A DNA stretch of 64,000 bases from Phycisphaerae bacterium RAS2. Lineage in GTDB: Bacteria > Planctomycetota > Phycisphaerae > UBA1845 > UTPLA1. The position numbers and the translations under genes are program-made. Where the stretch lies: contig CP036352.1 of assembly GCA_007753915.1 (NCBI GenBank), positions 2,791,306 through 2,855,305 of the forward strand, given 5' to 3'. Every line of letters begins with the position of its first letter. The first letter of the stretch is position 1. This document shows, in pieces, positions 45,980 through 47,675 of this stretch. Under the pieces are notes generated by a model. It ran no database searches. It saw nothing but the letters and a program-made list of their open reading frames with translations, and was not told where the DNA came from.

Positions 45980-46084
45980 ATGGACCGTCGTAGTTCGCTT
46001 CGACCCGTAGCTGTTCTCTCTCTCTCTCTCTCTCTCTCTCTCTCTCATGCTCTGCGCGCTGATCGCTCGATCAACGATTGCTGA
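45980..46084 (+). other. Signal-peptide reading frame that ends early through the (TC)16 tract
   Basis: ATG 45980 has an excellent AGGAGG at 45966-45971 (8 nt spacing). It encodes MDRRSSLRPVAVL then alternating Ser-Leu from the TC tract, HALRA, and stops at 46082-46084. The next frame, that of the beta-helix protein, is joined if the tract gains one TC unit or loses two; then MDRRSSLRPVAV, a Leu/Ser-rich core and LMLCALIARSTIA would form a normal signal peptide running straight into the mature protein. Confidence 0.7.
46015..46046 (+). repeat. (TC)16 dinucleotide tract in the signal-peptide region
   Basis: Sixteen uninterrupted TC units directly before ATG 46047. Such tracts change length by slipped-strand mispairing. 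Being 2 bp per unit, any change that is not a multiple of three units shifts the reading frame. Confidence 0.95.
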
Positions 46085-47675
46085 CCCCGATCCGCCACCG
46101 GAGCCGCCATGCGGATCTGTCCCGCTGGAGGGCACGCCGGTTTTCGAGGGCGCGATGGGCTGGGCCAAGTACGCGTTTCATGAGCCACCGTCGAACTACT
46201 ATCCCAGCATGCCGTGTGTCGTATCCAACGGCGACGATTACAACCCCGAGATCAACGAAGAACCGATCGAAGGCAGTTTGAGGTACTGCATTGAAGAAGT
46301 CACGGGGCCGCGGCTAATCAAGGTGAACTATAACGGTGAAATCAGGCTCAAAACGTGGCTTCGCCTCGAGGACGAGTCTTACGTCAAAATCACTGGAGAG
46401 TACGCTACGGGGGCAGGCCCAACCGTAACCGGCGCGGAGTTCAGGATCAAAGACTGCAACAACATCGTCCTGCGGTACATGCGCTTCCGGTCCGGCGTGT
46501 TGGACTCGGAGAATCCCCAGTACCATTGCGGCCGATCGTTGAACATTTGGGGAGACCAAACCGGCTGCAACGACATCATCGTCGATCACTGTTCCATCGG
46601 GGCGAGCCGCGACGACAACATTTCGGTCTCGGGAAAGTTGTGTCGGGTAACGGTCCAGAACTGCATCATCGGCGGCGGCACCATCGGCTATTCCCGCGCC
46701 GGCATCGGCTCCGCCCACGGCCCTGCCCACGAGCACGAACGGCTGACCTACTGCCGCAATCTGATTACCAACACGCTGGAGCGCCAGCTGGTGTTCACCG
46801 GCCCGGGCCGGGTTGACTTCTTCAATAACGTCGTTTCCATCAGCCGCCGGACGCTGGAAATCTGGTCGGGCGATGGGACGAACGGTCCCAAGATGAACAT
46901 CATCAAGAACCATTTCCAGACGCCGAATTTGTATCTGCTACGGGGCGGATTTTTTGAAGATCCGATTCGAGCCGTCGAGACAGAGAATCCCTACACGCCG
47001 AATTCTAACTCGCCGCTGCTCGTCCTTAGCACCGGCGATAACACCCTGCACATCAGCGGCAACCTGTACCTACGGTTCAATGTCAGTGCAGGAGAGTATG
47101 AGCCGACTTACACCAGTAACGAATGGAACATGACGGTCAGCCAGACGAGTCCGCCAACCGCCATCTACACAAATTTGGCGACCAGCCTGAAAAAGGATGA
47201 TCCATGGGACATGCCTTCGGACACAATACTTGACGTTGAAGAGGTCGAGGGGCATGTGCTGGAGAACGCGGGATGTCGACTGCCGCTGTCCAACCCGGCA
47301 TTGGACTCGTACGATCAGGCGCTCCGTTCCGCGCAGCTCATCACCGGCAACTCGCCGAGCAATGTCGTGTTCCCTGACAATCTGCCGGCGAACGACGGCA
47401 AACCCGGAATTCCGCTTCTGGACGCGCCCACGCACCAGGCCACAGGCGTCCCGACCACCGTCACGCTGACGTGGACTCCGAGTGATGAGACGGATGACTA
47501 TGTAATTTATATTGGCACAAGCACTCCTCTGACGAATCCGACCGCAACAACAGGCAATACGCAATGGCAAGCAACAGGATTGCAAGCCAACACACTTTAT
47601 CACTGGCGCGTTGTTGCCCGAGACAGTTGTGAACAGACGACGGGTTCGGAAGTTCGATCGTTTACGACCGAGTGA
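46047..47675 (+). CDS. Pectate-lyase-like secreted beta-helix protein with C-terminal FN3-like domain
   Basis: A 542-residue frame. Residues about 30-330 look like a PL1/pectate-lyase-type right-handed beta-helix (EGSLRYCIEEVTGPRLIKV, NNIVLRYMRFRSG, NDIIVDHCSIGASRDDNISV, RVTVQNCIIGGG); the NPxI/VDHCS region is the typical core. The final about 90 residues (TTVTLTWTPSDETDDYVIYI, NTLYHWRVVARDSCEQTTG) resemble a fibronectin type III module. ATG 46047 has no ribosome-binding site, because only TC repeat precedes it; the true start is probably ATG 45980 in another frame, joined by a change in tract length. As sequenced, the signal peptide is therefore out of frame. Enzyme activity is not certain: catalytic Lys/Arg were not verified. 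Confidence 0.72.
   Translation: MLCALIARSTIADPDPPPEPPCGSVPLEGTPVFEGAMGWAKYAFHEPPSNYYPSMPCVVSNGDDYNPEINEEPIEGSLRYCIEEVTGPRLIKVNYNGEIRLKTWLRLEDESYVKITGEYATGAGPTVTGAEFRIKDCNNIVLRYMRFRSGVLDSENPQYHCGRSLNIWGDQTGCNDIIVDHCSIGASRDDNISVSGKLCRVTVQNCIIGGGTIGYSRAGIGSAHGPAHEHERLTYCRNLITNTLERQLVFTGPGRVDFFNNVVSISRRTLEIWSGDGTNGPKMNIIKNHFQTPNLYLLRGGFFEDPIRAVETENPYTPNSNSPLLVLSTGDNTLHISGNLYLRFNVSAGEYEPTYTSNEWNMTVSQTSPPTAIYTNLATSLKKDDPWDMPSDTILDVEEVEGHVLENAGCRLPLSNPALDSYDQALRSAQLITGNSPSNVVFPDNLPANDGKPGIPLLDAPTHQATGVPTTVTLTWTPSDETDDYVIYIGTSTPLTNPTATTGNTQWQATGLQANTLYHWRVVARDSCEQTTGSEVRSFTTE

Follow-up and report, generated by a model that had tools for sequence, protein, structure and literature searches.

A dinucleotide tract separates a strong start codon from a long reading frame

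Why would a strong translation start lead straight into a dinucleotide repeat and terminate shortly after it, with a long secreted-type reading frame opening directly behind the repeat in another register? This arrangement occurs in the window, the 64,000-nucleotide stretch of the Phycisphaerae bacterium RAS2 genome analyzed here (all positions refer to its forward, +, strand). A sigma-70-type promoter (TTGACA-18-TATACT, 45854–45883), matching the consensus at 11 of 12 positions, is predicted to drive the unit. The ribosome-binding site AGGAGG (45966–45971) lies 8 nt upstream of the ATG at 45980, which opens the codons of a signal-peptide n-region (MDRRSSLRPVAV..., 45980–46014). The (TC)16 tract (46015–46046), our putative phase switch, then supplies the hydrophobic core, reading as Ser-Leu in every frame. 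As sequenced, the open reading frame (ORF) starting at 45980 yields a short product of 34 codons (45980–46084), ending at TGA 46082–46084. The long ORF runs from the ATG at 46047 to 47675 and encodes, over 542 amino acids, the remainder of the signal peptide followed by a pectate-lyase-like (PL1-type) beta-helix and a C-terminal FN3-like domain. The two ATGs are 67 nt apart and their frames thus differ by one base, so that adding one TC unit or removing two joins them. Tandem Repeats Finder reports TC x 16.0 with 100% matches. The original prediction, which had described 16 units, a near-perfect ribosome-binding site, two frames, their joining by these unit changes, and a downstream ATG without a ribosome-binding site (it is preceded only by pyrimidines), was correct on each of these points.

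Long TC runs are unexpected from composition: the window contains 12 overlapping matches to a five-unit TC run, all within the tract, compared with a mean of 0.06 and a maximum of 1 in 100 window shuffles. Both other frames are closed by TAG codons shortly before the tract (45991–45993 and 46008–46010), and in the long frame the first ATG, GTG, or TTG after its upstream TAG is 46047 itself. Among the leader copies described below, variable sites before the tract fall 3, 1, and 5 times on codon positions 1, 2, and 3, a total of 9 sites and too few to prove coding. The locus has two properties that define contingency loci, namely a perfect short repeat inside a 5' coding region (its translation predicted from promoter, ribosome-binding site, and ORF) and a downstream ORF that a change in repeat number shifts in frame, with an early stop when out.

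Leader copies differ in tract length and phase

We compared RAS2 (G000; 4,324,589 bases, one contig) with 100 relatives ranging from the same genus to the same order, among which G001 is the only congener. TC runs of at least 10 units occur at four places in the RAS2 genome, and the 196-nt leader used as a query retrieved five places at E < 1e-50, the next best match reaching only E 0.39. The search for other repeat numbers in the genus, suggested with the original prediction, was productive. The five RAS2 leaders carry 23, 12, 16 (window), 14, and 9 TC units, of which those with 23 and 14 are in frame and those with 12, 16, and 9 are out. G001 has two tract-bearing TC leaders, one with 12 units (out) and one with 26 (in). 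Over both species, 3 of 7 TC loci are in frame, and each of the three phases is represented; homologous loci differ in repeat number and occur in both phases, a further property of contingency loci. Since the five RAS2 copies are paralogues, the differences in their lengths arose in evolution and do not prove ongoing switching.

What surrounds the tract is conserved. All seven copies retain TTGACA with an 18-nt spacer, the AGGAGG ribosome-binding site, and 35 nt between start codon and tract; the -10 box is TATACT in five copies and TATTCT or TACACT in the other two. Because the ATG-to-tract distance and the post-tract codon position are identical in all copies, frame is set by the number of units alone. 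With 26 units, the tract of the window gene's closest G001 copy is in frame; the window tract has 16 units. The proteins are about 77–81% identical and the products of the downstream genes 83%. Flanking genes of at least 100 amino acids are unmatched between loci, so we speak of the closest copy, orthology resting on similarity of the unit. The original prediction had regarded non-repetitive signal peptides in homologues as an argument against switching. That argument fails for the close family of the two species, in which tracts are present. In distant homologues the repeat was absent from 7 of 7 examined stretches, and four further G001 copies of the unit lack both tract and beta-helix.

We also considered that TC tracts might simply be common by chance. 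This was rejected, since all five RAS2 matches to D(TC)8 are leader copies. A C(TC)8 search of RAS2 returned the same five places.

A second dinucleotide in the same protein family

As a negative control, (AC)8 was searched in the same 101 genomes as D(TC)8. It was present in 8 of them, and in G000, G001, and G015 the one place found in each belongs to the pectate-lyase-like family. These AC places lie just upstream of the next-best family homologues (G000:1106660, G001:481955, and G015:C31:4368), which a family-profile search had located independently. The RAS2 gene, a sixth family member, has AGGAG and an ATG, with (AC)16 starting 31 nt downstream of the A of that codon, and its ATG, tract, hydrophobic segment, and mature protein all share one frame. 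Omitting the flanking base from the (AC)8 pattern gave the same single RAS2 place, on one strand only. The G001 homologue has (AC)10, an ATG frame that stops early, and an open mature frame. Every RAS2 tract of eight or more TC or AC units, six in total, belongs to one protein family and begins 31–35 nt downstream of the A in its start codon. Across the genus, 4 of 9 distinct TC and AC loci are in frame (3 of 7 TC and 1 of 2 AC). The G015 stretch was left out of these counts as it is identical to that of G001 over 5,914 bases. This identity around (AC)10 links different genera (G015:C31, locus L221, and G001, locus L220) and may reflect contamination or very recent transfer.

Outside the family, the (AC)8 tracts of G056 (L208) and G079 (L210) lie within the 5' part of secreted-type ORFs, and that of G047 (L207) lies a short distance before a separate secreted-type start; inspection of the tract surroundings in G019 (L209) and G071 (L211) revealed nothing clear. 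The subtilase-type leader at L210, in another planctomycete, has a compound tract of (AC)10 followed by (TC)8.

The encoded proteins are lyase-like and under purifying selection

A profile built from nine family members has one solved relative over the protein body, 9buj (E 7.7e-21, profile positions 29–290), the PL1-type pectate lyase PfPL1 from Pseudoalteromonas fuliginea. The same structure was the best Foldseek match (E 6.7e-7) of an AlphaFold2 model, which we used for fold class only, its mean pLDDT being 58 (good for the FN3-like domain, moderate for the beta-helix, and poor for residues 291–395). The profile match and Foldseek agree with the beta-helix assignment that the original prediction had made from the sequence. 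The predicted right-handed parallel beta-helix, taken with PL1 sequence similarity, would place the protein in the PL1 type, from whose representative 9buj it differs by an extra C-terminal FN3-like domain while resembling it in sequence profile and fold. Pfam yields nothing beyond sub-threshold FN3-type matches at the C terminus, and the NCBIfam PelZ model scores 34.4, far under its cut-off of 840. By residue conservation, D180, D189, D190, and R246 are invariant across the nine family members. The window protein is accordingly described here as a predicted PL1-like beta-helix with an FN3-like tail, and its role as a lyase as putative.

Selection was assessed over the seven TC genes, all 21 pairs of which have dN/dS between 0.20 and 0.39. 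Comparing the window gene with its closest G001 copy gives a dN/dS of 0.25 at dS 0.58, with 0.12–0.31 in 90-codon blocks; in most other pairs dS exceeds 1, so that their values are saturated and rough. Every copy, whether in or out of frame, has an open mature frame. Low dN/dS together with open frames indicates purifying selection on the family.

The second gene of the unit (47696–48433) encodes a 245-amino-acid secreted-type protein (coding positions 47696–48430) that had no Pfam or NCBIfam match, the PEP-CTERM model included; a VPEP motif and hydrophobic tail resembling PEP-CTERM were recognized by eye. A homologue of this gene (ORF of at least 100 amino acids) is present in 6 of 7 units, and in the unit at 3714k the corresponding region is similar at the DNA level only.

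The unit is dispersed and also decays

The units sit at unrelated places in the genome and their flanking genes differ. In the window, a 25-nt REP-like palindrome (48474–48498) lies near the end of the unit. It recurs at 18 RAS2 places with at most one mismatch, and 6 of these 18 flank four of the five TC units. Other copies occur in close pairs (1344157/1345202 and 1083638/1085126), possibly marking further or decayed units. A 166-bp direct repeat brackets the two-gene unit: its upstream copy (45397–45562) is the 3' end of a ubiA-like gene and is 95% identical to the downstream copy (48539–48704), as if insertion had regenerated the end of that gene.

G001 holds four more leader-bearing copies (L196, L198, L200, and L202) that are missing the tract and most of the beta-helix. 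All four have one common junction, which indicates that the deletion derivative was itself multiplied; L198 differs by one base and has also lost its start codon. The family both duplicates and decays.

A contingency-locus model and its alternatives

We consider it quite likely that the window locus belongs to a group of translational contingency loci whose phase is set by the TC count. In this model, each locus would be expressed from its consensus-like promoter, strong ribosome-binding site, and ATG, followed 35 nt on by a TC tract that would form the signal-peptide core. As a stop-free TC run encodes Ser-Leu in any frame, changes of three units would only resize the hydrophobic core, whereas changes of one or two would shift the frame. 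For the leaders of this genus, a unit number n with n mod 3 = 2 would allow export of the pectate-lyase-like beta-helix protein (ON), and any other n would give a peptide of 18–34 residues (OFF). Slipped-strand mispairing during replication would alter n at random and reversibly. Independent switching of the five TC genes and the AC gene could thereby generate many combinations of secreted lyase-like proteins per clone, with possible benefits in varied polysaccharide foraging, adhesion, or evasion of phages or protists. Mismatch repair restrains dinucleotide slippage, and RAS2 encodes both MutS1 and MutL, with scores above cut-offs, so switching rates may be modest. For the same reason, the idea that the long tracts result from lost mismatch repair is unsupported.

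The original prediction named a sequencing or assembly error as its main competitor, with a true window tract that is in frame and fixed and a frameshift that is a counting artefact. Repeat counts are error-prone, RAS2 is a single 4.32-Mb contig that probably comes from a long-read assembly, and a cross-phylum sample of tracts described below has an excess of OFF copies (36 of 44). Such an error could alter the window count, but it leaves five paralogues, the congener, and the AC member unexplained: RAS2 lengths range from 9 to 23 with intact in-frame copies among them, the congener and the AC paralogue repeat the pattern, and a slip of one or two units cannot make such a system. A lone assembly slip was rejected, given that the five RAS2 leaders and the congener tracts vary in n. 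A repeat-count error could alter one phase but not give rise to the full set, as contingency loci can, and we regard the artefact as unlikely.

Comparably improbable is that the tract is merely a low-complexity hydrophobic core devoid of functional switching and that the out-of-frame copies are recently broken genes. The low dN/dS values rule out long-dead copies and are compatible with copies that left frame recently. Decay does occur in the family, as the four G001 copies lacking the tract and most of the beta-helix attest, and leaders in two other planctomycetes, G095 and G056, are length-stable (see below). Yet 5 of the 9 distinct TC and AC loci of the genus are out of frame, all with long open mature frames and with no second lesion seen; dN/dS near 0.25 and the use of a second dinucleotide at the same site in a sixth gene also argue against breakage.

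Translation could in principle begin at ATG 46047, with the upstream reading frame acting as a regulatory leader peptide. An ATG does follow the tract directly in 6 of 7 copies, but the seventh has GTG, only pyrimidines lie upstream, the product would have no normal signal peptide, and most TC loci of other lineages have no start codon directly after the tract, making this start very improbable. We give equally little weight to ribosomal or polymerase slippage that would produce some full product at every length, for although repeats can promote slippage, a run of CU dinucleotides is not known to be a slippery site.

Contingency loci are therefore the reading we retain. The phase-variable layout that the original prediction called likely is supported by five RAS2 leaders, all three phases, tracts of 12 and 26 units in G001, and a sixth member with an AC tract, and is still best called likely. 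The window finding stands and is larger than first noted, comprising putative contingency genes at multiple loci and with two dinucleotides.

Relation to known phase-variable systems

Repeat-length on/off switching is known mainly from pathogens. In Neisseria opa genes, CTCTT repeats lie in the hydrophobic core of the signal peptide and many unlinked copies switch independently; the unit is a pentanucleotide, the products are outer-membrane adhesins, and the bacteria are host-restricted. The RAS2 set resembles opa in the placement of its tract in the hydrophobic core and in having several unlinked copies, but its unit is a dinucleotide and its cargo a secreted lyase-like protein in place of an outer-membrane adhesin. 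In Helicobacter pylori, several Hop paralogues are under CT-repeat control. Excerpts of two papers describe oipA and sabA as switching by CT repeats, with the oipA tract in signal-peptide codons and mixed CT lengths measured within strains for sabA (PMC10564699, PMC2715451). As far as these excerpts go, RAS2 shares with oipA and sabA a CT dinucleotide tract in the 5' coding region and a frame determined by repeat number. The RAS2 protein, a predicted pectate-lyase-like beta-helix with an FN3-like domain, falls outside the Hop outer-membrane proteins and has the same working principle. Its cargo is secreted, compared with an outer-membrane adhesin in H. pylori, and tracts of the genus have 9–26 units, compared with 6–11 in the H. 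pylori excerpts. The host also differs, being a planctomycete in which one promoter-leader is common to the copies and is dispersed with a second gene, and in which an AC tract also serves the family. The RAS2 set hence follows a known working principle in an unexpected lineage, with unexpected cargo and packaging.

Among the matches listed in the literature searched, there was no report of repeat-driven phase variation in planctomycetes; papers containing "planctomycet" and "phase variation" (including PMC4060949, PMC3711429, and PMC4853749) concern other matters, as judged by title and the start of the abstract. One of these, a genome survey, correlates long simple repeats with dependence on eukaryotic hosts and finds mono-, di-, and trinucleotide repeats avoided across phyla (PMC4060949). 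A passage of a 2025 review attributes the pathogen focus of the field to current knowledge and expects the gaps for bacteria of habitats such as ocean and soil to fill (PMC11868660), and an extract on an uncultivated gracilibacterium describes a repeat-hypervariable surface protein whose 9-nt units preserve the reading frame (PMC6851277).

In RAS2, a planctomycete that encodes mismatch-repair proteins, six such loci are maintained within a single secreted lyase-like family. If these loci switch and the organism is free-living, bet-hedging of secreted enzymes would not be a speciality of pathogens. Each tract offers a ready-made test, countable in sequencing reads. There is also a warning for annotation: such genes appear leaderless or broken when the assembled tract is out of frame.

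TC and AC tracts beyond the genus

D(TC)8 is present in at least 10 of the 101 genomes, a lower bound as the pattern misses tracts preceded by C, and 7 of these 10 have it at two or more places. In a sample of the phylum, a ribosome-binding site, ATG, and (TC)8 occur together in 5 of 392 genomes, RAS2 among the five, and the trait is thus rare and patchy. Extending the search to genome_contigs (84,980 species, each represented by one genome), GGAGG-N4-12-ATG-N15-45-(TC)9 matched 104 stretches; the 80 listed come from Planctomycetota, Omnitrophota, Spirochaetia, Schekmanbacteria, and others. For 36 of the 80, the criterion of one post-tract frame of at least 100 amino acids with both others below 60 excluded them from the phase count. 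Among the 44 kept, 8 are in frame with the ribosome-binding site and ATG and 36 are out, in a sample that may include chance start codons and whose loci are not independent (several per genome, and one locus twice, L075/L123). Since tracts near a random ribosome-binding site and ATG fall in all phases too, phase counts alone prove nothing. The excess of OFF copies over two thirds (36 of 44, binomial P 0.037) could reflect a natural OFF bias, assembly bias, or wrong start codons.

An AxA motif or lipobox occurs within the first 28 post-tract residues in 22 of 44 loci, compared with 6 of 44 when residues 61–88 of those ORFs are considered (Fisher P 0.0005); hydrophobicity is also higher over the first 12 post-tract residues of the 44 loci. 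Pfam analysis of nine post-tract proteins from eight genomes identified subtilases (L044 and L046), a right-handed beta-helix (L047), a dockerin-bearing protein (L076), Big_2 domains (L119), and DUF2341 (L075), with weak beta-helix or DUF1565 matches for L129 and L225 and none for L043.

Other planctomycetes limit how far the RAS2 pattern can be generalized, since tracts in two of them look stable in length. In G095, the tract is 20 nt long in 3 of 4 distinct copies despite differing point interruptions, and 22 nt in the fourth (L062 and L065, split between contigs with 141 identical overlapping bases, were counted as one locus). All three TC leaders of G056 (n = 9, 9, and 12) have one phase. 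The tracts of both genomes may be length-stable and fixed, or another start codon may be in use. The tract of G079 and its genus mates is placed within a long N-terminal extension, ahead of the apparent signal peptide. TC loci of G079, G081, G095, and G097, all from the same order as RAS2, match the named Planctomycetota MAGs SJ659, BroJett003, USDE_maxbin.044, and Bin_18_1 with identical flanks over 409 to 610 compared columns, which places the window in the planctomycetes.

We tentatively propose, giving the idea slightly less than even weight, that dinucleotide-repeat phase variation of secreted-protein and lipoprotein genes through signal-peptide tracts is a recurrent and largely unseen trait in bacteria that are known chiefly through metagenomes (Planctomycetota, Omnitrophota, Spirochaetia, and others). 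It would have been reached independently in several lineages, with two dinucleotides within one family, and in the RAS2 genus would spread as a promoter-leader-tract-lyase unit that is portable and bordered by REP-like palindromes.

The nearest approach to an observed length change is the locus shared by L075 and L123, on two metagenome-assembled genome (MAG) contigs. Their alignment of 5,172 columns has no mismatches, and its sole gap spans six TC units (n = 13 and 19, both in frame). These MAGs are labeled Omnitrophica (UBA6210) and Dehalococcoidia (UBA10535), the latter probably misbinned. The Spirochaetia MAG Bin_56_1 has at least five loci with a ribosome-binding site, ATG, and (TC)n before secreted or lipoprotein-like ORFs (L081, L091, L119, L125, and L142). 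One of them encodes Big_2 Ig-like domains, and together they are a candidate phase-variable surface repertoire.
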